In this document: piece by piece, positions 34,676 through 61,368 of the stretch
How positions within the stretch are numbered: the stretch's first letter is position 1
Layout: each line of letters begins with the position of its first letter
Source: Actinokineospora enzanensis DSM 44649
GTDB taxonomy: Bacteria > Actinomycetota > Actinomycetes > Mycobacteriales > Pseudonocardiaceae
Direction: 5' to 3'
Length of the DNA: 64,000 nucleotides
Assembly: GCF_000374445.1 (NCBI RefSeq)
Contig: NZ_KB894422.1
Span: forward strand, 1 to 64,000
The notes under the pieces: generated by a model
Databases searched by the model: none
What the model saw: only the letters and a program-made list of their open reading frames with translations
What the model was told of the DNA's origin: nothing
Made by a program: the position numbers and the translations under genes

Positions 34676-35290
34676 TCAGACGGACCGGACGACCTCGTCG
34701 TAGTCCAGGCGCGGGTTGCGGTCGAACCAGGCGTTCTCGCCGGGGGTGCCGAGGTTGACCACGACCAGCGAGCGCAGCTTGCCGTCCGGGAAGAACTCGC
34801 GGTCCACGCCCGCGGCGTCGAAGCCGCTCATCGGGCCCGCGGCCAGGCCGATCGCGCGCACGCCCAGCACGAAGTAGCCGACCTGGAGCAGCGCGTTGAA
34901 GCGCGCGTTCTCGACCCGGGCCGCGTCGTCGGCGGCGTGGATGTCGCGGGCGATGGGCAGGTTCGGGAAGGTGCGCGGCAGGTGCTCGTGGAAGTCCACG
35001 TCAGCGGCCAGCACGGCGGTCAGCGGCGCGGTCAGCGTCTTGGCGCGGTTGCCCTCGGCCAGGTGCCGGGCGAGGCGCTCGCGGGCCTCGGGCGTACGGA
35101 CCAGCAGGATCCGCAGGGGCTGGCTGTTCATCGCCGTCGGCGCCCACTTGACCAGGTCGTAGACGGCCTGGACCTGCTCGTCGGTGACCGGCTCGGCAGT
35201 GAAGGAGTTCGCCGTGCGGGCGGTGCGGAACAGCAGGTCCTGGCCCTCCTCGGTGAGCTGGGCGAGCTGGGGTTCCTGTACTGCGGTCAT
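34676..35290 (-). CDS. Nitroreductase family protein (malonic semialdehyde reductase-like)
   Basis: A 204-aa FMN nitroreductase-fold protein: FRTARTANSFTAEPVTDEQ, YDLVKWAPTAMNSQPLRILLV, IGLAAGPMSGFDAAGVDREFF, as in RutE/HadB-type reductases. It likely reduces an aldehyde or nitro compound with NAD(P)H. The upstream 210-bp gap holds a lower-GC stretch (cttaattgagagcttgacta) and a 9-bp inverted repeat. Confidence 0.88.
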   Translation of the reverse strand: MTAVQEPQLAQLTEEGQDLLFRTARTANSFTAEPVTDEQVQAVYDLVKWAPTAMNSQPLRILLVRTPEARERLARHLAEGNRAKTLTAPLTAVLAADVDFHEHLPRTFPNLPIARDIHAADDAARVENARFNALLQVGYFVLGVRAIGLAAGPMSGFDAAGVDREFFPDGKLRSLVVVNLGTPGENAWFDRNPRLDYDEVVRSV

Positions 35291-35317
35291 GACTGGTGCT
35301 CCTGGGTCGGCCGGTCC

Positions 35318-35342
35318 GTCGTTCCGGGAAAGGCGGAACGAC
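35318..35342. promoter_or_regulatory. 9-bp inverted repeat upstream of the nitroreductase gene
   Basis: gtcgttccg (35318-35326) and cggaacgac (35334-35342) around a 7-nt centre, 28 bp before the nitroreductase start. It is a possible operator or leader hairpin. Confidence 0.35.
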
Positions 35343-35500
35343 CCGTGCAACTTAATTGAGAGCTTGACTATTTCACCGGCGTTCATGGCGATCGTCACAT
35401 CCCGGATTCACCCGATAGCCGCAACGACGCCCGTTACGGGGACGTCGTGGTCCGGCAGGGTGTAGGGATCGGAGGCACAAGCTGATCACCGGGGGGACAC

Positions 35501-38500
35501 GTGCGGGTGCCATCGCGCCGGATCATCCGGGCGGTGCTGCTCGCCCTGCTGCCGGTCGTGGCCATCGCCCTCGGCACGCTGATGGCCACCGGTGGTCTGG
35601 AGCAGAACGACAAGCTGGCCAGCGTGTTCGGCCTGTTCGCCGCGCTGGCCGCGCTCGCGGTCGCGGTGGTCGGCCTGCCGCCCGCGCCGGACGAGTTCGT
35701 CCGCGACACCACCGAGCTGGCCGACGACCTGGCCACCACGATCCGCGCGCAGTGGCTGGAGGAGGCCGCGGCGCGCAGCCTGATGGACCCGCACATGCTG
35801 CCGCTGACCTGGTCGGACGGCCAGCGCGCAGGCCGCGTCGACGGTCGGTTCGCCGAGGTCGGGCAGCGGCTGGCGGAGCGCTACGGCGACATCCACAGCG
35901 GCAGGCTGCTGGTGCTGGGCGAGCCGGGGTCGGGCAAGACGGTGCTGGCCATCGTGCTCACCCTTGGCCTGCTCGGCGAACGCCCGCCCGGCGCGGCGGT
36001 GCCGGTGCTGCTGACCGCGTCGTCCTGGGACCCGGGCGAGGTGCCGCTGGACGACTGGATCGTGCGCATGCTGGCCACCTCGTACTACCACGGCCGCGCG
36101 GACATCCCCCGCAGGCTGCTGCTGGCCGGGAAGATCCTGCCGGTGCTGGACGGGGTGGACGAGATCCCGGAGATCGACCGGCGGGGCGCGGTGCGCGGCA
36201 TCAACGCCGCACTGGGCCGCGACCGCCCGGTGGTGGTGACCTGCCGCAGCACCGAGTACGCGGAGGTCGTCCGGGACGGCGCGGCCCCGCTGCGCAAGGC
36301 CGCCACGGTCGAGGTGCGGCCGGTGGCGGGCGCGGACTCGGTCGCCTACCTGAGCGAGGTGCAGTGGCCGAGCGGGACGGACTGGGCACCCGTCTACAAA
36401 GCGCTGCGGGACCGGCCGGGGAGTTCGGTGGCGGCAGCGCTGTCGACGCCGTTGATGGTGTCCCTGGCCCGCATGGCCTACCAGCGCGCGGGCGGCCCGC
36501 CCGCGCGGCTGCTGGACGAGACGGAGTTCCCGGACCGGCACTCGATCGAGGACTTCCTGGTCGACCAGGTGATCGAGGCCGCGTACGCACCGGACCCGCT
36601 GCCGACCGGTGAGGTGGGCCACGCCCCGAGTGGACGGTGGAGCGCCACACAGGCACGTCGCTGGTTGACCTATCTGGCCCGGTACACACACCGGCACCGG
36701 GAACGAGACCTGGCGTGGTGGAAGGTGAGCGACCGCCTGGTGTCGCCGTGGGTGGCACCCGCGATCGGGGTGGGCATCGGCGTGACGCTGATGGTCGCGG
36801 TGGCGGGCGCGGGGGCGCTGCTGGGCGCGGATCCGCTGTTCAGCGACCTGTTGGAGATCGGCCTGGGGCTGGCGGCGCTGGTGGCCGTGCTGGCGACCGC
36901 GCTCTGGTACGGCGCGACCGGCCGGGAACCCGGGCGGGTGGCGTTCGTCGCCCGTGGGTCGCTCGGCCGACTGCGGCGCGGGTTCGCCACCGGTGTGGCG
37001 TTCGTGGCCATCCCGGTGACGCCGGTGCTGGTCGGCGCGGTCCTCGTGTCGGCGACCGTGGGCGGCACGTTCGCCGAGGTGACCGAGCTGGTGACCGGCA
37101 TCCTGGCGGCGGTCGGGTTCGCCGCCGTGGCCGGGGCGACCGTGGCGGCGCACAACTGGCTGAACGCACCACCCGAACGGTCGACGAAGGCGGGCCCGAT
37201 CGGGCTGGTGCGGCAGGACCGGCGGGCGACGCTCGTGGGAGCGCTGGTTGCGGGCGGGATCGCGGGCCTGGTGTCCATTCCGGCACTCGCGCTGGTGCGG
37301 TTCCTGTCGGAAGTGTTCGGCCCCGGGGTGGCCGCACTGCTCGGGTACGCGGGGACGGCGCGGTTCGATCGTGACCCGCTCGACTTGGGCGCGCCGATCA
37401 ACACGGCCGCCGTGGTGCTGCTGCCCGCGTTGGCCGGTGCGCTGCTGGTGTCGTTGACGCGCGCGTGGCCCCGGTTCGTGTTGGCGCGGTTGGTGTTGGC
37501 GGCACAGGGGCGACTGCCACTGCGGTTGCTGGCGTTCCTCAGTGACGCGCGGGATCGCGGGTTGTTGCGGCATTCCGGTGAGGTGTACCAGTTCCGGCAC
37601 GTGTTGGTGCAGGAACGCCTACACGCCACGGCTGTCGAGGCAGCGGAGCCGGTCAGGCGGCCGCGTCGGGTGCGTGCGGTCGTGTGTGTGGTGTTGCTGC
37701 TCGCGGCGACCGTGGTGACTGTCGTGACCTACAACCACATGCGGTGTGAACCGGCCCTGCACTTGGGAACCGACGTCGACCGGGTGCGCGCGTTCGACGG
37801 GACCGGGTCGCATTGCGTGGGATTGGTTCCGGAGACGGAGTGGTCGACGCTCGGGGTGGATCCTGGCGTGATCGCGCTGCTGCGTGCGGGGAACCAGAAC
37901 GCCCTCACCGCGCCTCGACATGTGGATGTGGCTGTCGTGGGGCCGTTGCGGCCGGACGACGGCGGGTCGACGCAGCGGATCACCGAGCAGCTGAAGGGGG
38001 TGACGTTGGCACAACGAGAGAGTGGCTTGGTGGGCCGCGCCATCCGCATCGTGCTGGTGTCCGCGCCTGGGCTGCCCGCCGGGGTTGAGCCTGCGGTGCT
38101 ACCGGAGACGACGGAGGTGGCCGTCCAGCGCGCGGTCGAGCGGGAGGGGATGTCGCTGGCGGCGGTCATAGACCTGGACTCGCCGATGCTCTCGCCCGAA
38201 CCGGTACCTGCGGCCGGTAGTCCCATGACGCCGTTGGTGGGTGCACGGCAGCTGTCGGAGACAGCGCACACGGAACAGGTGCGCGCGCTGCGGATGCTGA
38301 CGTTCCTGCGCGGGGAACTGGGCAACTTCCAACTGGTGCCCTCGGGCTCGCGCCTGGGCTGTGCCGGGTCGGGAGATCTGGCGGTGGCGTTCTCGACCGA
38401 GGTACCGCCACGGCTGTTCCTGGAGCAACAGAGCTGCGCGGGTCGGCCGGTGGACCTGGTGCTGCTGGGCAACGTCACGGAGGATCTGCGGTCACGCTTC

Positions 38501-38725
38501 CAGGCCGGACGGGACACGCGCCTGACGGTGTACCTGGCCGCCGAGGGCACGAACACCGGCGACCGCGCCTGCCCCCAGGCCGCGGCCGACATCGGCCTCA
38601 CCTGCCGCACGGTGTCGAGCCGCTACACCTACGAACTGGTGCAGGCCATCGTCGGCACCCCCGCCCGCCCCATCACCCGCATGACCTGGGGCCCCCGCGG
38701 CTGGATCACCACCACCATCCCCTGA
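35501..38725 (+). CDS. Large NACHT NTPase fused to an extracytoplasmic domain
   Basis: A 1074-aa protein. Two N-terminal hydrophobic helices (8-28, 40-58), then a NACHT ATPase: Walker A GEPGSGKT (140-147), Walker B KILPVLDGVDEI (about 211-222). A multi-helix membrane region spans about 405-680. The segment LLRHSGEVYQFRHVLVQERL (about 685-705) matches the first NACHT protein. One more helix (about 725-745) is followed by a ~330-residue Cys-containing outer domain (VDVAVVGPLRPDDGGSTQR, IRIVLVSAPGLP, VDLVLLGNV) that reads like a periplasmic-binding-type fold. It could sense an outside ligand and signal through ATP. GTG start. Confidence 0.8.
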   Translation: MRVPSRRIIRAVLLALLPVVAIALGTLMATGGLEQNDKLASVFGLFAALAALAVAVVGLPPAPDEFVRDTTELADDLATTIRAQWLEEAAARSLMDPHMLPLTWSDGQRAGRVDGRFAEVGQRLAERYGDIHSGRLLVLGEPGSGKTVLAIVLTLGLLGERPPGAAVPVLLTASSWDPGEVPLDDWIVRMLATSYYHGRADIPRRLLLAGKILPVLDGVDEIPEIDRRGAVRGINAALGRDRPVVVTCRSTEYAEVVRDGAAPLRKAATVEVRPVAGADSVAYLSEVQWPSGTDWAPVYKALRDRPGSSVAAALSTPLMVSLARMAYQRAGGPPARLLDETEFPDRHSIEDFLVDQVIEAAYAPDPLPTGEVGHAPSGRWSATQARRWLTYLARYTHRHRERDLAWWKVSDRLVSPWVAPAIGVGIGVTLMVAVAGAGALLGADPLFSDLLEIGLGLAALVAVLATALWYGATGREPGRVAFVARGSLGRLRRGFATGVAFVAIPVTPVLVGAVLVSATVGGTFAEVTELVTGILAAVGFAAVAGATVAAHNWLNAPPERSTKAGPIGLVRQDRRATLVGALVAGGIAGLVSIPALALVRFLSEVFGPGVAALLGYAGTARFDRDPLDLGAPINTAAVVLLPALAGALLVSLTRAWPRFVLARLVLAAQGRLPLRLLAFLSDARDRGLLRHSGEVYQFRHVLVQERLHATAVEAAEPVRRPRRVRAVVCVVLLLAATVVTVVTYNHMRCEPALHLGTDVDRVRAFDGTGSHCVGLVPETEWSTLGVDPGVIALLRAGNQNALTAPRHVDVAVVGPLRPDDGGSTQRITEQLKGVTLAQRESGLVGRAIRIVLVSAPGLPAGVEPAVLPETTEVAVQRAVEREGMSLAAVIDLDSPMLSPEPVPAAGSPMTPLVGARQLSETAHTEQVRALRMLTFLRGELGNFQLVPSGSRLGCAGSGDLAVAFSTEVPPRLFLEQQSCAGRPVDLVLLGNVTEDLRSRFQAGRDTRLTVYLAAEGTNTGDRACPQAAADIGLTCRTVSSRYTYELVQAIVGTPARPITRMTWGPRGWITTTIP

Positions 38726-38906
38726 CCGGGCGACCGCGAGCCAAGCCATGATCCATCTTCCACCGCACAGCAGCCCCCTCCCACCCAGGGGGGCGGGCCC
38801 CACAAGGACACCGTACCGCCCGCCGCGCCCTGTCAAGAGCCCGGAAACGGGCCTGTGGAAGGAAACGGTTACCGACGGGGAACCTGTGGACAACCCGGAG
38901 ACGGGT

Positions 38907-38937
38907 CGGTGACCGTGCCAAGGCGGCACGGTCACCG
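38907..38937 (-). terminator. Terminator of the lanthipeptide operon
   Basis: A perfect 13-bp stem (38907-38919 with 38925-38937) and 5-nt loop begins seven bases after the precursor stop. The rest of 38726-38906 shows no gene. Confidence 0.7.
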
Positions 38938-38943
38938 ACGGGG

Positions 38944-39078
38944 TCACCACTCGCAGCCGTTGGTGACGATCATCAGTGACGAGAAGCAGTGGCTGCAACA
39001 GCTGGAGATCAGCTGTGGCTCGTCCCCGGTCTGCTCCGCGGCAGGCATCAGGTCGAGCTCGTTGACGGTCAGTTCCAT
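38944..39078 (-). CDS. lanA: Class IV-like lanthipeptide precursor
   Basis: A 44-residue peptide gene too short for usual ORF calls. Start ATG 39078 has AAAGGTGAT seven bases upstream. The acidic leader (MELTVNELDLMPAAEQTGDE) contains an ELDLM helix like the ELxLQ motif of class III/IV leaders. The last ~21 residues are rich in Ser, Thr and Cys: SSCCSHCFSS, then LMIV, then TNGCEW, with five Ser, one Thr and four Cys, the raw material for lanthionine rings. It starts 11 bases after the synthetase stop, so it is the likely substrate. No protease or transporter gene is adjacent. Confidence 0.88.
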   Translation of the reverse strand: MELTVNELDLMPAAEQTGDEPQLISSCCSHCFSSLMIVTNGCEW

Positions 39079-39089
39079 CGGATCACCTT

Positions 39090-41762
39090 TCAGTAGGAGG
39101 GCAGCAGGGGTCTTTCACCGCCGTGGTAGAGGCGGAGCAGGAAGGACAGGGCGCCCGCGTATCCGTTCGCGAAGGCGGCGACCACGTCTCCGGTGTCGTC
39201 GGGGGTGAGCATGCGGCCGCGACGGGGGACCGTGCGGGCGATCAGGGCCTCGGCGGTGTCGGCGGCCCAGATCCGGTAGCGGTCGTCGCCGAGAGCCTCG
39301 TGGCAGTCGAGGAGGAAGTCGCCGTCGGTGGCGAGGCCGTGGCACCACAGCGGCGGGGAGGTCCAGTTGGCGCTGCGCACGGCGACGGCCGCCGCCTCGG
39401 CCAGCGGATCACGGGTGTGGAGCAGGAAGCCACCGACCCCGCTGGCGCCACTGCAGAAACCGGTCAACCGCACGGAGTCCGCCTCGCTGTCGTCCTCGCC
39501 GCTGGGCCAGAACGCCGCGTCCCCGTCCACGATCGCGACCCCTCGCAGCGCGGTCGCGCAGTCCTGGGCAGCAGCCCAGTACCGGTCAGAACCGGACGCG
39601 GCAGCGGCGTCCAGCAAGAACGTGCCGATACCCGCGACCCCGTGCGCGAACCCCCAGTGCCGCTTGCCCGCCAGTGCGAACTCTCCCGTAGCAGTCCACT
39701 CCGGACCGATGCTCAACAGATAGTCCGCACACGCACAGGCCTGTCGCAGCAGGTCCTCCTCCCCCGTGTGCCGCCACAACCGCAGCAACGCCAACCCGGC
39801 ACCCGCAACACCGTGGAACACGTCCGGCACCGGCCACTCCACCGGCAGCCGCCGCGCCAACCGCAATGCCTCGTCCTGGATGTCGGCAGCGTCGAGCAGT
39901 TCACCCGCCTCGTACAGACTCACGGCAGTACCCGCGCGCCCGAACAACAACCCCGGCAACAACCGAGGCTCCGCAGGCAACCGGCGCAGCGTCCACCGCG
40001 CGGCCAGCTCGACCGTCTCCAGCACATCGCGCCCCGCCCGCGCGGCCTGGCACAACACCAGCAGCACCCCCGGCGCGCCGACGTGCACCGAGCACGGGTC
40101 GTACCGGCTGGCTGTCTCCGAGTTGCGCCACAACCACGGCGCGCCAGGGTCGGCGGTCGCCACGATGTCGGCCAGCATGTCGTCGATCACGCCACCGACG
40201 TCCACAGTGGACGCGGACACCGCGCGCGGCCGGGGTACCGGCAGCCAGGTCGTGGGCGCCTCCACCAGCAACGCCGAGTCGCCGTGGGCGGCACGGACGC
40301 GCGTCGTGTGGCCGTTGGCGGGCTCGGGCATGCCGAGATCCCCGAGCTGGGCGCGAACCGTGGCCAGGTCGGGCCGCGCGGCCGGATCCGGTGCCAGCAG
40401 ATCCGTCAGCACCGGCCCGACCAGCGCCGCCACCGGGTTGCTCGGCGTCATCGCCGTCACCATCGCGCGCAGCCGGGTTCCCTTGCAGGCGGGCGGATGC
40501 GCGCCGGACACCAGGTGGAACAGCGTCGCGCCCAGCCCGTAGAGGTCCGACGCCACGCTCGGGTCGGCGGCGATCATCCGCGCCCGGCCCTCCTCCTCCG
40601 GCGCCGCGTACCCCGGGGTCAACAGCCGCGCGGCCACGTCCGTGGGCCGCAACGCCGACTCCAGGTCGATCAACACCAGCTCGCGCGACGGCGTCACCAG
40701 CACGTTGTTCGGCGTCAGGTCGCCGAGCACGTACCCGGCGGCGTGCACCTCCCCCACCCGGTCGACCAGCTGACGAGCGAGGTCGAGCGCGAGCGGCACG
40801 TCCAACGCCAACGCGCCAGACGGCGACGGCCGCAGCTCGCGGGCGACGAACCGGCGCAGCGGCACGCCGTCGATCCACTGCTGGGCCACGAAGATGTCGG
40901 TGCCCGCGGTGAAGATGTCCACGAACCGCGCCGGGTCCAGCGCGGCGAGCAGGCGCGCCTCGGCCCGAGCGCGGGTGCGCGAGTCGGTGCCGTCGACCCC
41001 GGCGCCGGTGTGCTCGCGAAAGCGTTTGAGCACCACCGTGGTGCCCTCCGGGTCGACCGCGAGGTACACGCCGCCCCGGTTGTTCTGGCGGATCGCGCGC
41101 ACCACCCGGAACCGGCCGCCGACCAGGACGGACTTGGGCGGCGTCTGCTCGGCCTCGGGGGTGTGGAACGGGTCGACCGCCCAGTCCGGGGCCACCTTGC
41201 CCACGCTGCGCTGGTCGGGCACGGCGGTGCCGTCCGGGGCGTGCAGCACGGCCCGGTACTCGCCGTCGTCGGTGAGGACCAGGTCCGGGGCGAAGGCGCC
41301 GTAACGGTAGAAGACCTGGGAGTGCGCGCGGTAGCGGCGGTCGGTGAGGATCCACTGGCCGGGCAGGCCGAGCGTGGCCGCGTGCAGGTCCTCGGCGACG
41401 GCGCGGGCGTGGTCGTCGTCGTCCGGGTAGGCGGTGATGAACTTGCCGGCGGCCTTGCGGTCGGCGTTGGGGCCGACCAGCTCGTGCACGCGGCGCAGGG
41501 TGGCGGCGAACTTGAACGCGCACCGGTGCCGGGCCAGCACGTCGGCCGCGCGGGCCAGCACCAGGCAGGCCGAGAGCGGCGTGGCGGGCACGTGCAGCTT
41601 CCAGCCCTGCGCGCGCGGCCGGTGGTCGTCGGGCAGGACGTGGTGCCAGTGCGTGTCGACGTGGTGGCGCCAGCGGTCGGGGGCGTGCCGGGCCAGCACG
41701 GCGGCGAGGGTGTCGGCGAGCAGTTCGCCGTCTTCGGTGGCACCGCCTTCAGCGCTGATCAT
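39090..41762 (-). CDS. lanL: Class IV-like lanthionine synthetase (lyase-kinase-cyclase)
   Basis: An 890-aa three-domain enzyme. Residues ~1-220: phospho-Ser/Thr lyase domain (WKLHVPATPLSACLVL, GKFITAYPDDDDHA, LTDRRYRAHSQVFYRYGAF). About 225-500: protein kinase (VLKRF, LGDLTPNNVLV catalytic loop, LIDLE). About 560-890: LanC cyclase. The LanC zinc ligands appear present (TGFCSGASG and LWCHGLATDG give Cys, Cys, His), which separates class IV LanL from zinc-less class III LanKC. It phosphorylates and dehydrates Ser/Thr of the precursor and adds Cys thiols. ATG 41762 is chosen; a TTG/GTG pair lies ten codons upstream. Confidence 0.9.
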   Translation of the reverse strand: MISAEGGATEDGELLADTLAAVLARHAPDRWRHHVDTHWHHVLPDDHRPRAQGWKLHVPATPLSACLVLARAADVLARHRCAFKFAATLRRVHELVGPNADRKAAGKFITAYPDDDDHARAVAEDLHAATLGLPGQWILTDRRYRAHSQVFYRYGAFAPDLVLTDDGEYRAVLHAPDGTAVPDQRSVGKVAPDWAVDPFHTPEAEQTPPKSVLVGGRFRVVRAIRQNNRGGVYLAVDPEGTTVVLKRFREHTGAGVDGTDSRTRARAEARLLAALDPARFVDIFTAGTDIFVAQQWIDGVPLRRFVARELRPSPSGALALDVPLALDLARQLVDRVGEVHAAGYVLGDLTPNNVLVTPSRELVLIDLESALRPTDVAARLLTPGYAAPEEEGRARMIAADPSVASDLYGLGATLFHLVSGAHPPACKGTRLRAMVTAMTPSNPVAALVGPVLTDLLAPDPAARPDLATVRAQLGDLGMPEPANGHTTRVRAAHGDSALLVEAPTTWLPVPRPRAVSASTVDVGGVIDDMLADIVATADPGAPWLWRNSETASRYDPCSVHVGAPGVLLVLCQAARAGRDVLETVELAARWTLRRLPAEPRLLPGLLFGRAGTAVSLYEAGELLDAADIQDEALRLARRLPVEWPVPDVFHGVAGAGLALLRLWRHTGEEDLLRQACACADYLLSIGPEWTATGEFALAGKRHWGFAHGVAGIGTFLLDAAAASGSDRYWAAAQDCATALRGVAIVDGDAAFWPSGEDDSEADSVRLTGFCSGASGVGGFLLHTRDPLAEAAAVAVRSANWTSPPLWCHGLATDGDFLLDCHEALGDDRYRIWAADTAEALIARTVPRRGRMLTPDDTGDVVAAFANGYAGALSFLLRLYHGGERPLLPSY

Positions 41763-42033
41763 CGCACCGTCCCAGGGCCGTGGGGACACCAATCGGTCCC
41801 AGGGGCCAAATAGACTCCCCCGGACCGCCCCCGGACAAGCCTGTGACGTGCGAGAAGACCCGCCAGGACGACGGATTCCTCCGTTAGGTCCGGATGGGTG
41901 ACGGCCCGTGTGCCTGAGTCACCCAGGCGACCGGACCGGCTGGTCGCTTTCCCGGCCGAAAATCGGCTGCGACGCACGCCGCCAGCCGGCTAGGGTGCCG
42001 CGACAGCCGCATCACGAGAACGAGGAGAGGTCC
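41763..42033. other. Divergent intergenic region between lanL and the ribosomal protection gene
   Basis: This gap holds no gene. It should carry the two outward promoters; no clear consensus pair was picked out by eye. Confidence 0.5.
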
Positions 42034-42144
42034 ATGCGCCGAGTGACGACAGGCCCCAGCAGCCGCCGCCCACTCGCATACAAGGACCTCCCACCGGATG
42101 CGCATGCTGAACCTCGGCGTCGTCGCGCACGTCGACGCCGGTAA
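42034..42144 (+). CDS. Possible leader peptide of the ribosomal protection gene
   Basis: A 36-codon frame with the best ribosome binding site in the region (GAGGAGAGG at 42022-42030) starts at ATG 42034 and overlaps the first 47 bases of the next gene in another frame. The product is Arg-rich (MRRVTTGPSSRRPLAYKDL). TetM-type genes are often controlled by leader-peptide attenuation, so this may set translation of the resistance gene. Confidence 0.4.
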   Translation: MRRVTTGPSSRRPLAYKDLPPDAHAEPRRRRARRRR

Positions 42145-43966
42145 GACCAGCCTCACCGAACGACTCCTTTTCGACGCGGGCGCGATCGCGCGCCTCGGGT
42201 CGGTCGACGGCGGGGACACCACCACCGACGGCATGGCGCTGGAGCGCCGCCGCGGCATCACCATCCGCGCCGCGGTCGCCTGCCTGCGCGTGGGCGACCA
42301 CCAGGTGCACCTGATCGACACGCCGGGGCACGTGGACTTCGTGGCCGAGGTGGAGCGCGCGCTCGGCGTGCTCGACGGCGCGGTGCTGGTGATCTCGGCC
42401 GTGGAAGGCGTGCAGGCGCATACGCGCGTGCTGATGCGCACGCTGCGCGCGGTCGGTGTGCCGACGCTGCTGTTCGTCAACAAGGTCGACCGCGCGGGCG
42501 CGCGCGGCCTGGAACTGCTCGCGGAACTGCGGCGGTTGCTGGATTCCACCGTCATCGCGCTGAACCGACCGGCGGACCCGGGCACCCGCGCGGCCTCGGT
42601 GGTGACCGTGCCGCTCGGCGAGGACGCGGCCGAGGTGCTGGCCGAGCGCAGCGACGCGGTACTGGAGTCCTATGTGGATGGCCTGGACCCGGAGCTGCTG
42701 CGGGCGGAGCTGATAGCACAGACCCGAAAGGGACACGTGTTTCCGGTGCTGTTCGGTTCCGCCATCACCGGCGTCGGTACCGCCGAACTATTCCGTGCCA
42801 TTGTGGAATTGTTGCCGTGCGGCAATCCCACGGCCGCCGGGAATCCGCTGGCGGGAACGGTATTCGCGGTGGAACGGGACGCGGCCGGACGCCGATTCGC
42901 GGTGGCCCGGCTGTTCTCGGGCACGGTGGCCGCGCGCGACCGGGTCGAATACCTGCGGCACCGGGCAAACGGCGTGGTGAGCGAGTCCGGACGGGTCACC
43001 ACCGTGCTCGACGCCACCGGCGCGCCGGGTCGGGTCGGCGCGGGCGGCATCGCGCGCATCGGCGGGCTGCCGAGGCTGCGCGTGGGCGACCACCTGGGCA
43101 CGTCCGCGACCGCCCGGCCGCGCGCCTTCCGGTTGCCGACAATGGAAACCGTCGTCACCTCGGCCGACCCGGCCGCCCTGTTCGCCGCACTGGACACGCT
43201 GTCCGACGAGGACCCGTTCATCGACGTCCGGCGCGGCCCCGAGCCGGGCAGCCTGGTCGTGTCGCTCTACGGCGAGGTGCAGCGGGAGGTCATCGCGGAC
43301 CGGCTGGCCGACGAGTTCGGCGTGACCGCGCGGTTCGCCCCGACCCGCGCGGTGTGTGTGGAACGGGTGGTGGGCTCGGGGCACGCGGTGCACCACATCG
43401 GCGACGGCCTGCCGTTCTGCGCGACCCTGGGGCTGCGGGTGGACCCGGGGTCCGGTGTGGACTTCCGGCTGGCGGTGGAGCGGGGTTCACTGCCGGGCGC
43501 GTTCTTCACCTCCATCGAGGAGAGCGTGCGCGCGGCGCTGGACGACGGGCCACACGGTTGGCGCGTGGTGGACTGCCGGATCACCGTGACACACACCGGC
43601 TACTTCAGCCCGGTGACCACGGCCGGAGACTTTCGCGGTCTTGCCCCGCTGTTGCTCGCGGACGCGCTGCGGTCGGCGGGGACGGCGGTGTGCGAGCCGG
43701 TCGACCGGGTGGAACTGGTGGTGCCGTCGGACGCGCTGACCCCGGTACTGGCGGCGGTGGTGCGGCTCGGCGGCCTGCCGGAACCGCCGCGCGGCGACGC
43801 GGACACCGTGTTCGTGTCGACGACGCTGGCGACGGCGCGGGTGCGCGAACTGGCGAAAACGTTGCCAGGGCTAACCAATGGCGTGGGCTCGCTCACCACG
43901 CACCCGCTCGGCCACCGTTCGGTCAGCAGGGATGCGCCCGGCCCGGCCCCCCGTCCGCGGGCGTGA
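42098..43966 (+). CDS. TetM/OtrA-type ribosomal protection protein
   Basis: A 622-aa translational GTPase related to EF-G. It begins MRMLNLGVVAHVDAGKTSLTERLL (P-loop), with RRRGITIRAAV (switch I), DTPGHVDFVAEVERAL (G3), NKVDRAG (G4) and the C-terminal domains IV/V. OtrA of Streptomyces opens almost identically. Such proteins release tetracycline from ribosomes. It is divergent from lanL; no link with the lanthipeptide is proven. It overlaps the convergent downstream gene by 44 bp. Confidence 0.9.
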   Translation: MRMLNLGVVAHVDAGKTSLTERLLFDAGAIARLGSVDGGDTTTDGMALERRRGITIRAAVACLRVGDHQVHLIDTPGHVDFVAEVERALGVLDGAVLVISAVEGVQAHTRVLMRTLRAVGVPTLLFVNKVDRAGARGLELLAELRRLLDSTVIALNRPADPGTRAASVVTVPLGEDAAEVLAERSDAVLESYVDGLDPELLRAELIAQTRKGHVFPVLFGSAITGVGTAELFRAIVELLPCGNPTAAGNPLAGTVFAVERDAAGRRFAVARLFSGTVAARDRVEYLRHRANGVVSESGRVTTVLDATGAPGRVGAGGIARIGGLPRLRVGDHLGTSATARPRAFRLPTMETVVTSADPAALFAALDTLSDEDPFIDVRRGPEPGSLVVSLYGEVQREVIADRLADEFGVTARFAPTRAVCVERVVGSGHAVHHIGDGLPFCATLGLRVDPGSGVDFRLAVERGSLPGAFFTSIEESVRAALDDGPHGWRVVDCRITVTHTGYFSPVTTAGDFRGLAPLLLADALRSAGTAVCEPVDRVELVVPSDALTPVLAAVVRLGGLPEPPRGDADTVFVSTTLATARVRELAKTLPGLTNGVGSLTTHPLGHRSVSRDAPGPAPRPRA

Positions 43967-57096: not shown

Positions 57097-57324
57097 ATGG
57101 CATGGTCGGGGCGACCGATTCTGGTGGAAGTTGACAATTACGGGACATCCTGGGTCAAGAGTTCGGCAAGTGGCGGCGCCAACGGCGACGCCCAAGGGTG
57201 TGTCGAGTTCACACAGGGGAAACCGCGAACAGAGGTCCGAACCTCACGTGACCGAGCCGGTCGGCATCTGAGCTTCCCCGGCCGGTCCTGGCGTCGGTTC
57301 GTCTCCGACCTGCGAGGATCATGA
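57097..57324 (+). CDS. DUF397 protein
   Basis: A 75-aa DUF397-like protein: SWVKSSASGGANGDAQGCVEF, then VRTSRDRAGRHLSFPGRSWRRFV, a single normal copy with variant wording. Start ATG follows AAAGGGG. Its stop overlaps the start of the NB-ARC gene (ATGA), a coupling that ties the XRE/DUF397 pair to the ATPase. Confidence 0.78.
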   Translation: MAWSGRPILVEVDNYGTSWVKSSASGGANGDAQGCVEFTQGKPRTEVRTSRDRAGRHLSFPGRSWRRFVSDLRGS

Positions 57325-59432
57325 GCGGCGGGCGCGCGAGCGTGCACAATCGGTTCCACTCGGTGTCGCCGAACACGGTGGTGCAGGTAGGCATCGTGTC
57401 CGGGGACTTCTACGTGACCAAGGGGGAGAATCCGGTGTTGCCGACGCCAAGGCAGTTACCCGCGCCGCCGCACCTTCTGCTGGGCCGGGGGCGGGAACTC
57501 ACGCGGCTGGACGCGGCTCTTGATCTCGCGCGGGACAAAACGAGAGTCGCCGTGCTGGCGGTGGAAGGTTGTGGCGGGATCGGGAAAACCGCGTTGGCGC
57601 TGTACTGGGCGCACACGCGGCTTTCCCGTTTTCCGGACGCCCAGCTCTATGTCGATCTTGGTGAACGCGGCGACCGGATGTTGCCCGTGCTGCACGATTT
57701 CCTGATCGCGCTGGGGTTGGACCCGGCCGCCATGCCGCACAACGAGGAAGCGGCCAAGGCCATGTTCCGCAGCACCTTGGCCGATCGGGCCGCGCTCCTG
57801 GTGCTGGACAACGTGAGCAGGGTCGAGCAGGTGCGCGCTCTGATGCCGAATACGTCGTCCTGCGCGGTGCTGGTGACCAGCCGGGGTCATCTGTCCGGTT
57901 TGGACCTCCTGGGCGGGACCACGGTCCGCCTCGACCCGCTGGAAACCCCGACCGCCCAACAGGTCTTCGAGGCGTACCTGGGTGCCGACACGGTCAGCGC
58001 GGAACCCGAGGCGACGGAACAACTTCTCACGCACTGCGCCGGACTCCCCTTGGCGCTGGTCATCCTGGCCGCGCGCGCTGCCGAGTACCAGGCGAGCCCG
58101 CTGACCAGCCTCGCCGCCGAGCTGACCGATCCGACCAGGCTGGCGGCCTTCGAGACCTCCGACGGTGGTCTCAGCCTGCGCGCCGTCCTGGATTGCGCCG
58201 CCGCCGGTCTCGACGCCGACCAGGCACGCACGTACCGCCTTCTCGGTGGCGCGCCCACGGCCGAGGCGACGATCGAGTCCACCACAAGCCTTCTGGCCTC
58301 GTCCCCCCGCACCGCCCAGCGGCTTCTACACGCGTTGACGGCACGCAACCTGCTCGCCCAAACGACTCCCGGGCGGTTCCGCATGCACCCACTGGTGCGC
58401 GCGCACGCGAGCGAAGGGCTCCGGGACGAACCACCCGCGATCACCACCGAAGCCCTGCGTCGGCTGGTCGACCATTATGTGCACACCGCCTGCGCCGCCG
58501 ACAGACTTCTCTTCGGCAACCGCTCCCACGCCCAACCGCCATCCCCGCCGACCGGCTGCGCCCCACTCACGTTCGCGGGCGCCGACCACGCGATGCACTG
58601 GTTCACGCAGGAACACCGCCAACTCATGGCCATGCTGGACGAGTCGGTACGCCGTGGTTGGCCGGAACCTGTCTGGTATTTGTCCCGCTTCCTCGACACC
58701 TACCACTACCGCCGTGGCCACCTGGAGGAGAACGTCAGCACGTCCCGGGCGGGCGTGGTCGCCGCGAGCGAACTCGACTCGCCTGGGTTGAAAGCGGCCG
58801 CGCTCCGCCAGCTCGGCCGGGCCTACACCCGCAACCACGAGTTCGACGAGGCGACGCACTGCCTGGACCGAGCGCTGGACCTGCTCACCGCGACCGGCGA
58901 TCCCACGGAGCTGGCACACACCCACCACGACCTGGGCAGGCTGGCCGCGCGTCAAGGCAATCTCGACGGGGCGCTCCGCCATTCATCCGAGGCGGTCCGG
59001 CTATATCGGGCGGCGGGCAACGCGATCGGCGAGTCGCACGCGCTCAACGCGCTCGGCCGGGCGCAGGCGGAGCGGGGAGTCCACGCGGAGGCGGAAACGT
59101 GCTGCCGGACGGCGTTGCGGTTGAGCGAGGAGCACGACAACCCGTCCGGGCGGATGGTCGCGCTGGACAACCTGGGCTACCTGGCGTTGGGCACCGGCGC
59201 GCTCGACGACGCGGCCGACTACCACTCCCGGGCGGCGGAAGTGGCGGCCGTCCTCGGCGCTCGATCGTTCGAGGCCGAGGCCGTCGAGCATCTGGCGGAC
59301 GCGCTCATCGCCCGCCGGGCGGATCACCCCGAGGCGGCGGACGCGTTGCGCCGCGCCCACGACCTCTATCTCGCACAGCACCGGGTCGGCGACGCACAGC
59401 GCTGTGCGGGCCGCCTCGCGGAACTGTCCTGA
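57321..59432 (+). CDS. NB-ARC/TPR STAND ATPase without DNA-binding domain
   Basis: A 703-aa AfsR-like ATPase lacking the SARP head. The N-terminus (RFHSVSPNTVVQVGIVSGDFYV, 11-32) is the short VVQ-G-I-x-G-D motif found in actinobacterial STAND proteins. NB-ARC: P-loop GCGGIGKT (83-90), Walker B ALLVLDN (about 151-157), GLPLAL (about 240). A winged-helix-like part follows, then TPRs (about 470-700). Such proteins oligomerise on sensing a trigger. It ends five bases from the convergent TIR/SEFIR gene. Confidence 0.88.
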   Translation: MSGGRASVHNRFHSVSPNTVVQVGIVSGDFYVTKGENPVLPTPRQLPAPPHLLLGRGRELTRLDAALDLARDKTRVAVLAVEGCGGIGKTALALYWAHTRLSRFPDAQLYVDLGERGDRMLPVLHDFLIALGLDPAAMPHNEEAAKAMFRSTLADRAALLVLDNVSRVEQVRALMPNTSSCAVLVTSRGHLSGLDLLGGTTVRLDPLETPTAQQVFEAYLGADTVSAEPEATEQLLTHCAGLPLALVILAARAAEYQASPLTSLAAELTDPTRLAAFETSDGGLSLRAVLDCAAAGLDADQARTYRLLGGAPTAEATIESTTSLLASSPRTAQRLLHALTARNLLAQTTPGRFRMHPLVRAHASEGLRDEPPAITTEALRRLVDHYVHTACAADRLLFGNRSHAQPPSPPTGCAPLTFAGADHAMHWFTQEHRQLMAMLDESVRRGWPEPVWYLSRFLDTYHYRRGHLEENVSTSRAGVVAASELDSPGLKAAALRQLGRAYTRNHEFDEATHCLDRALDLLTATGDPTELAHTHHDLGRLAARQGNLDGALRHSSEAVRLYRAAGNAIGESHALNALGRAQAERGVHAEAETCCRTALRLSEEHDNPSGRMVALDNLGYLALGTGALDDAADYHSRAAEVAAVLGARSFEAEAVEHLADALIARRADHPEAADALRRAHDLYLAQHRVGDAQRCAGRLAELS

Positions 59433-59437
59433 CCGGC

Positions 59438-61162
59438 TCAGACGGGTTCCTTCTCCCGCTTCTCCGCCCACGCCCGCGCCTTCTCCGCACGCAGTTCCCG
59501 GAGCGCGCGCTTCCAGTTGCGCCTGCCGAACCAGCCGCAGAACCCCTGCCAGGTGGTCCACCGGCGGCCGCGACGGGCCAGCGCGACCCGCTCGGCCGGG
59601 TCGAAGCAGAGCCGTTCGATGGTGCGGATGTCGTTGCGGGACAGGCCGAGATCCCGGGGCGTGACCCGGATGCCCAGCCACTCGCTCTCCGCCGCCAACC
59701 GGGGCAGGCCGAGCGTGTCGAAGATCTTCTCCGCGGCGGCGGCGGAGACGCGCGCGGGCTGTCGCCGCCACCGGCGCCGGTTCGCGTGCAGCCGGGCGAG
59801 GGCGAGGTAGGCGCGGCCGAGCAGCTCGGCGAAGACCCGCTTGTCCACCCTGGGCTTGAGCGCTCGGAGCAAATGGTCCAGCCGGTCGGTCGCCGCCGGG
59901 TAGTCGCCCTCTTCTATGTCGATCCTGGCTCGGAGCAGGTTGGCCTCGTGGTGCTTGGCGAGCTGGGTGTCGGAGTAGCAGGCCAGCGCGCGGTCACCCA
60001 GCTCGTGGGCCCGCTGCAGGTCCTTGCTCCGACCTGACCGCTGGTAGGTGGTCAGGTGCACCTCGGCGAGCACCAGTTCGGTGGTGGCCCGTTCCTTGCT
60101 ATCCGCGGCCGACCTGAAGAAGTCGAGCGCCTTGCCCGCGCAGTCCAGGGCGTTGCGCAGGTGCTCGTCGTGCCGGTCCTCCCCGGCGATCTCGGCCAGC
60201 ACCCGGTGCACCCGGCCGAGCCTGCGCCGGGCGTCCGCCTCCAGGCCGAGGTCGTGCGCCTCGGTGGCCAGCGCCAGCCCGCGCTCGGCCGCGGCCAGCG
60301 CCTCCTCCTGCCGGTCCTGGTGGTAGCGGAGCCGGGCCAGGCCGCGGATCAGGTAGCGGGCCGTCGCCTGCTTGGTCTCGTCGTCGAGGTCCACCCGCGC
60401 CGCGGCGGCGAGGCAGACGTCGGTGACGTCGCCGAGCAGGTCGAGATCACCGGCGTGCCTGGCGATCACGTCGATCAGCGTGAACGCCCTGACGAACTCG
60501 GCGGTGTGCGGCACGTTCGCCGCCCGCGCGCTGTCGATCCAGGCCCGCGCCAGCCGGGGCGCGGTCGAGCAGGCCGGGTTCACCTGGCCGAGGCGGTCGA
60601 GCTGCTTGCGCACGGGTGAGGGCACCCGGATGCCCGGCCGGGTGTCGCGGCGCGGTCGGACCGGGGCGGCGCCGGTCTTGGCGGCCCGCGCGAACTCGTG
60701 CGCCTGCACGATCCGGGCGTGGATCACCTCGATGCCCTCCCCGGTGACCGGGTCGAACCTCCCGACCTCCAGGCCGCGCAGCGCGAACGGGACGTCGTCG
60801 GGGTCGAAGTTCGGCAGGCAGACCGGGATGACCGGGCAGCCAACGGCGCCCTCGTGCTGGTAGAGCTTGCGCAGGACCGCCCGCCACTCGAACGCCGTGC
60901 CGAGGTGGCCGTCCGGGTTGTCCGCGCACGCCTCGGTGAACGCCCTGGTCACCAGGCAGATCACGGTCGTGCTCTGCTCGATGCCGCTGCTCATCCACTG
61001 CGGCAGCGAGGCGGGGTTGCTCTGTTTGAGCACCGCGTCGTGAACCACGGTGACGCCGCGCTGGGCCAGCAGCTGGGCGAGCACCCGCACGGTCTTGCGG
61101 GTGGCCGGTTCGTGCAGCTGGCAGAGGAACACCGACGGTTCGTCGGGGGGAGTGTGTCGCAC
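59438..61162 (-). CDS. TIR/SEFIR-domain protein with TPR-like C-terminus
   Basis: A 574-aa protein. Residues ~10-150 form a TIR/SEFIR-type fold: SVFLCQLHEPATRKTVRVLA, GVTVVHDAVL, WMSSGIEQSTTVICLVTRAF, then TAFEWRAVLRKLY with a Glu where active TIR NADases have theirs. The remainder is helical with TPR-like repeats (about 210-500) and a basic tail. It may be a signalling or NAD-consuming effector. GTG 61162 has GGAG five bases upstream; a GTG at 61213 is an alternative without such a site. Confidence 0.75.
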   Translation of the reverse strand: MRHTPPDEPSVFLCQLHEPATRKTVRVLAQLLAQRGVTVVHDAVLKQSNPASLPQWMSSGIEQSTTVICLVTRAFTEACADNPDGHLGTAFEWRAVLRKLYQHEGAVGCPVIPVCLPNFDPDDVPFALRGLEVGRFDPVTGEGIEVIHARIVQAHEFARAAKTGAAPVRPRRDTRPGIRVPSPVRKQLDRLGQVNPACSTAPRLARAWIDSARAANVPHTAEFVRAFTLIDVIARHAGDLDLLGDVTDVCLAAAARVDLDDETKQATARYLIRGLARLRYHQDRQEEALAAAERGLALATEAHDLGLEADARRRLGRVHRVLAEIAGEDRHDEHLRNALDCAGKALDFFRSAADSKERATTELVLAEVHLTTYQRSGRSKDLQRAHELGDRALACYSDTQLAKHHEANLLRARIDIEEGDYPAATDRLDHLLRALKPRVDKRVFAELLGRAYLALARLHANRRRWRRQPARVSAAAAEKIFDTLGLPRLAAESEWLGIRVTPRDLGLSRNDIRTIERLCFDPAERVALARRGRRWTTWQGFCGWFGRRNWKRALRELRAEKARAWAEKREKEPV

Positions 61163-61368
61163 CGGAGCTCCAATCCAGAGGGGCCGATGGATGTCGCATC
61201 CCGCTACCTTCACTTAGCGAGATCGCAGACAGGACACATCATAGGGCCGCCAGCGTTTTGGGACATCCTGTCGCGCGGATACCAGATTGTGGACAAACAT
61301 GTCGAAGTGAGCGGCGCTCAGCTCGGCCGTCGAATTCTGGAATTGCCAAAGAAATAGAACGGATCCAG

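Follow-up and report, generated by a model that had tools for sequence, protein, structure and literature searches.

The question raised by this locus of Actinokineospora enzanensis DSM 44649 is whether a lanthionine synthetase gene and the very small Cys-rich gene that follows it form an enzyme and substrate pair. The pair is very probably a two-gene class IV lanthipeptide operon, in which LanL, by analogy with VenL of Streptomyces venezuelae, would modify Ser/Thr and Cys residues in the core of the precursor. The window (the whole stretch of 64,000 nucleotides that was analysed) carries both genes on the minus strand, separated by the gap of 11 bp that the sequence-only reading had given. 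The elements of the locus are as follows:

39090 to 41762, minus strand: LanL, a class IV lanthionine synthetase of 890 amino acids (Pfam, NF038150 and catalytic residues)
LanL residues ~22-206: N-terminal phospho-Ser/Thr lyase domain (Pfam RamC_N)
LanL residues ~228-425: kinase domain (Pfam Pkinase)
LanL residues ~556-884: LanC-like zinc cyclase domain (Pfam LANC_like)
39079 to 39092, minus strand: LanL stop codon and 11-bp spacer with the AAAGGTGAT ribosome-binding site of the precursor
38944 to 39078, minus strand: LanA precursor gene of 44 codons, leader ~1-23 and core ~24-44
38905 to 38939, minus strand: hairpin of 15 bp with a 5-base loop just past the precursor stop, a probable terminator without a T-run

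Class IV synthetases are defined by lyase, kinase, and LanC-like domains united in one protein. The window LanL has all three over their Pfam cut-offs: RamC_N in the lyase region (184.8 bits), Pkinase (34.2 bits), and LANC_like (117.6 bits). It also passes NF038150, the NCBIfam equivalog model for class IV LanL (811.7 bits; cut-off 650); against the class III model NF038151 it falls short (409 bits; cut-off 575). The three-domain, class IV-like synthetase proposed earlier is therefore borne out. Lyase and kinase domains are shared by classes III and IV (PMC12328550), and the whole protein finds its best PDB matches in chains labelled kinase or LanKC. Both points would suit an enzyme that acts as a class III LanKC, giving labionin or linear dehydrated products with no zinc-assisted ring closure. 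We give this reading almost no credence, and the family models together with the zinc ligands led us to reject a class III assignment: the class III score is far below its cut-off, the class IV score is far over its own, and the zinc triad is intact in all six Actinokineospora species that carry the gene.

Catalytic residues were compared in an alignment of 35 synthetases (the window's, five from the genus, 28 from the family, and one from the order, with VenL outside the set); L062 (no long frame), L067 (poor match), and the duplicates L009 and L012 were dropped from it. Lyase residues K55, H57, K84, and Y112 are kept in 35 of 35 sequences, kinase residues K246, D348, N353, and D366 are invariant, and cyclase residues C770, C807, and H808 are each kept in 34. 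The last three are the predicted Cys-Cys-His zinc ligands; the motifs FCSGASG and LWCHG that had been named with them are both present, and H707 is a further cyclase residue. C770 aligns with the CHG Cys of LanC-like protein 2, which we take to be a zinc binder, and the kinase and zinc roles of the LanL residues are likewise assumed from general fold knowledge. The four lyase residues appear to correspond to Lys51, His53, Arg83, and Tyr108 of VenL, matched by motif and order only (Goto 2010, PMC2843593).

The window LanL is 72-75% identical to the other five genus LanLs over aligned residues (66-71% by tblastn). Extra residues occur near the C-terminus of LanL in A. globicatena (~60; L041:8430-8838) and A. 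terrae (~95; L042:8340-8647), and both insertions fall between the equivalents of residues 815 and 830 of the window LanL. Deviations at the zinc site are seen in two synthetases that pass the class IV cut-off: L072 (863.2 bits) is missing both zinc-ligand Cys, and in L020 (735.7 bits) Cys-Cys replaces Cys-His.

A cognate precursor is recognized by a leader motif together with a core of Ser, Thr, and Cys. The 44-residue peptide has Cys at positions 27, 28, 31, and 42 and Ser/Thr in its tail at positions 25, 26, 29, 33, 34, and 39, exactly the four Cys and six Ser/Thr counted earlier. We infer a leader/core border near residue 23/24. Leaders of classes III and IV are described in a review by a hydrophobic-repeat motif, (theta-xx)theta-xx-theta-xx-theta (PMC12328550). 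The pattern across the six copies, V5-x-x-L8-x-x-M/L11-x-x-A/V/T14, largely fits this motif; its fourth position, residue 14, is Ala in the window copy and in one relative (L040), which lies outside the residue set quoted for the motif. The leader stretch is LxxLP in four copies and LxxMP in the same two.

The LanL stop codon (39092-39090) and the precursor ATG (39078-39076) are 11 bases apart, and this spacing implies one operon. In the relatives the gap is ~22-41 bases. The ribosome-binding site of the precursor had been called good; a site is present, but AAAGGTGAT is weaker than the GGAGG-containing sites that all five relatives have in the same place. A strong terminator had also been claimed. 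The hairpin after the precursor is stable (-38.8 kcal/mol, z -5.4) and occurs at the matching position in six of six species, where its bases vary and its pairing is preserved, but a consensus terminator scan of 38600-42200 returned none. Because it has no T-run, the hairpin is graded as a probable, non-canonical terminator. No sigma-70-type promoter was found in the same interval.

Conservation within the genus gives evidence for the pair. LanL scores over the cut-off in six of 16 Actinokineospora genomes, and the precursor is found in the same six, directly downstream of LanL each time; it was not found in the other ten. In one further genome (G002), a LanL-like protein stays below the cut-off at 516.8 bits, and this precursor is missing. 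The six precursors comprise five different sequences in which 35 of 44 residues are invariant, including every Ser, Thr, and Cys of the core, and the window copy is 84-89% identical to the others. Pooled dN/dS is ~0.15 for the precursor, ~0.09 for its core, and ~0.30 for the synthetase (pooled over 15 pairs that are not independent), so the precursor is under a lower dN/dS than its own enzyme. The precursor frame is real, beyond chance, because it occurs in the same six genomes as LanL and because the differences in its DNA, weighed against the available sites, are mostly silent. The lineage is narrow (one genus), and conservation is therefore in part due to common descent.

A wider survey covered 390 genomes of the bacterial family (Pseudonocardiaceae) and a sample of 397 genomes of the order. 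LanL is over the cut-off in 45 of the 390 family genomes and the precursor is present in six, all Actinokineospora, with no relative of the precursor found outside the genus in this set. The order sample gave the precursor in two genomes, both Actinokineospora, plus three weak matches (L098, L099, and L100; E 0.003-0.007). These three were judged to be chance on their frame context and because none of their genomes shows a LanL-like match at E 1e-60. Two of the weak matches are internal to long frames, and the third falls in a short frame that has no ATG start, though it has a locally similar SSCC stretch. The core family is thus apparently restricted to Actinokineospora, and the earlier remark that the core was not recognizable holds, since the three weak matches, in genomes without LanL, are all that was found outside the genus.

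Some of the other LanLs in the family adjoin different cores, which vary between groups. In L059-L061 (core CCDTDWTSG..C) and in L063, L065, and L068 (core CCSFTCGS.SCGATC), LanL is followed within 50 bases, as in the window, by a small, Cys-rich peptide, which in these loci has an LxxLP leader; synthetase identity to the window LanL is ~35-41%, and the cores differ. Altogether, nine of 28 LanL loci outside the genus have a Cys-bearing peptide with an LxxLP leader at most 50 bases downstream, and L020 has a possible precursor upstream. In 18 of the 28, no adjacent precursor was accepted on either side within flanks of ~1.5 kb; the neighbour filter was crude, with LxxLP as part of it, so that these precursor counts are lower bounds. 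The loci without an accepted precursor in the searched flanks are L043, L044, L046-L058, L066, L069, and L072, and they could be orphan synthetases, enzymes with unclustered substrates, or misses of the crude filter.

Adjacency of LanL and precursor is not a rule, given those 18 loci. This would agree with a real LanL whose true substrate is encoded elsewhere, the 44-residue peptide being an unmodified neighbour with, for example, a metal-binding or regulatory role; a Cys-rich CCxxC core could bind metal. We regard this as very improbable. The peptide co-occurs with LanL and adjoins it in six of six species, in a single operon layout with a closing hairpin. It also has the leader motif, and its Ser/Thr residues are as invariant as its Cys. 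Pairing of homologous synthetases with a consistently different peptide had been named as a refuting observation. Different peptides accompany the LanLs of other genera, but within Actinokineospora all six LanLs over the cut-off stand with this one, which favours the pair.

Genomic surroundings were examined for further genes of the system. The neighbours discussed below are:

42098 to 43966, plus strand: ribosomal-protection-type GTPase, upstream of lanL and divergent
35501 to 38725, plus strand: NACHT-domain protein (Pfam)
34676 to 35398, minus strand: nitroreductase-family gene, neighbour of the pair
57321 to 59432, plus strand: NB-ARC/TPR protein (Pfam)
59438 to 61213, minus strand: TIR/SEFIR-domain protein (Pfam)

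The GTPase matches the Otr(A) model best (675 bits; cut-off 900) and scores 583.6 bits on the general Tet-protection model (cut-off 775), in both cases below the cut-off. The NACHT, NB-ARC/TPR, and TIR/SEFIR proteins are all encoded inside a stretch of 26 kb. Downstream of the pair are NACHT-domain, nitroreductase-family, LVIVD-repeat, and DUF305/CopM genes. In L042 as well, the lanthipeptide pair and the nitroreductase gene are separated by a homologue of the NACHT gene. The gene at 34676-35398 was considered as a clustered protease and rejected, as it encodes a nitroreductase-family protein. It lies 0.12-0.13 kb past the pair in L039 and L040 and farther away in L041, L042, and the window. 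It is common in genomes without LanL over the cut-off (eight of ten in the genus) and was missed in LanL-positive G006, and it is therefore not counted in the system. This distribution suggests that the LanL/precursor pair has been gained or lost as a unit next to a conserved block.

A divergent upstream partner was also rejected: the upstream gene in L039 encodes an NB-ARC/TPR protein and no transporter. That protein has close relatives in L041, L042, and L012, and the window holds only a distant paralogue; L040 has an HTH protein in the upstream position. An MFS gene lies beyond the upstream gene in L039, L041, and L042, but L080, where no LanL passes the cut-off, also has a relative of it, next to the nitroreductase gene.

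The earlier statement that no transporter or protease lies nearby agrees with these searches. None of the 142 ABC ATPase matches in the genome falls in the window (C20:1-64000), and the nearest on its contig is at 96 kb (150 of 307 candidates scored in both cases). The genome has four M1 peptidases, with no match within the window. Pfam was run on 21 window frames besides the pair (one on the wrong strand) out of 159 listed of at least 150 amino acids, many of them overlapping non-genes; the scanned frames span most of the 15 kb on each side, and the sole transporter among them is an MFS gene 9.7 kb away.

The pair could also be a decaying remnant that is no longer productive in this strain, and a window with no ABC transporter or M1 protease match, a precursor missing from ten of 16 genus genomes, and a ribosome site weaker than that of the relatives would agree with decay. 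Intact frames, intact catalytic residues, and low dN/dS make it very improbable.

For the favoured class IV operon, gene identity, pairing, and conservation are observed directly, and the chemical steps are modelled on VenL, whose phosphorylation, elimination, and cyclisation activities have been demonstrated (PMC2843593). LanL would bind the precursor through its short acidic leader, the kinase domain would phosphorylate core Ser/Thr, and the lyase domain would remove the phosphate to leave dehydro-residues. The cyclase zinc site would then add the four core Cys to dehydro-residues. The precursor could undergo up to six dehydrations (-108 Da) and acquire up to four thioether rings. With all six, the computed monoisotopic mass of the core, counted from Ile24, would drop from 2305.93 to 2197.87. 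Some Ser/Thr may well stay unmodified, as between one and three dehydrations are described for other class IV products (PMC9576775). At a guess, Thr39 and Cys42 might form a short methyllanthionine ring, with a compact cluster in Ser25-Ser34. Ring direction should not be assumed, as venezuelin includes rings in which Cys is N-terminal to the dehydro-residue (PMC2843593). Leader removal and export would probably be carried out by proteins encoded elsewhere.

Venezuelin (VenL/VenA) is the closest point of comparison (PMC2843593). Both systems have a three-domain LanL with corresponding lyase motifs and a zinc cyclase, and a single short precursor with four core Cys. The venezuelin cluster is described without a protease gene, as is the case here, but it has an ABC transporter (venT, venH) and none was found in the window. 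The two cores look unrelated by eye. In venezuelin, the rings overlap within the stretch from residue 31 to residue 50 (PMC2843593), whereas the present core has a CC-x-x-C cluster and a distant TNGC. SflA is also a class IV product, and its rings are non-overlapping; its leader is removed by SflL, an AplP-like protease encoded outside the cluster (PMC10885120). Unclustered leader removal of this type is a plausible model for the present precursor, although PDLLK, recorded as the recognition sequence of SflL (PMC10885120), is absent from it.

Class IV LanL products of Chondromyces crocatus and Streptomyces sp. DvalAA-43 have been made in E. coli, one with one dehydration and one ring and one with three dehydrations and two rings (PMC9576775). 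Neither comes from Actinokineospora, and they are likened to the present system by description. Globisporin and streptocollin also depend on class IV LanL enzymes with leader-motif recognition, as here, but they belong to the venezuelin-like group (PMC12328550, PMC10676316), whereas the present core family turned up in Actinokineospora alone.

Class IV loci are well known: a 2020 catalogue already lists 815 clusters and 401 precursors (PMC7268733), and protease genes are described as usually missing from clusters of this class (PMC2843593, PMC10885120). Class IV is described as the least studied lanthipeptide class (PMC10676316), and few of its products have been described so far. A literature search by title and abstract opening turned up neither an account of this core nor any class IV peptide from Actinokineospora. 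Two Actinokineospora papers mention, in the text available, lanthipeptide classes I-III, or lanthipeptides and RiPPs generally (PMC13238742, PMC9973853). The core appears to be undescribed, and the peptide may yet stand in the supplementary precursor table of the catalogue (PMC7268733). The locus is real, tidy, and testable, and it is not surprising to a specialist. With its two genes and six natural copies (five peptide sequences), it is a clean system, well suited to in vitro reconstitution, and class IV could gain a new core family and ring pattern from it. Its conservation makes the role of a class IV product testable by deletion.

A tentative suggestion, to which we assign a low probability, is that the product might be a conserved, genus-specific signalling or morphogenetic lanthipeptide rather than a diversifying antibiotic. 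The suggestion is prompted by a core held tighter than its enzyme, by a pair that is present in some genomes and missing from others next to a conserved chromosomal block, and by searches that found no clustered exporter, immunity, or protease gene. If it is true, CC-x-x-C would give a compact fused ring cluster and TNGC a separate small ring, a topology unlike the ring patterns described for the few characterized class IV products compared. The same genome encodes two more lanthionine-synthetase-like proteins, G000:C5:87216-89243 (358.5 bits) and G000:C1:135757-137892 (334.8 bits), which are below the class IV cut-off and are probably class III.
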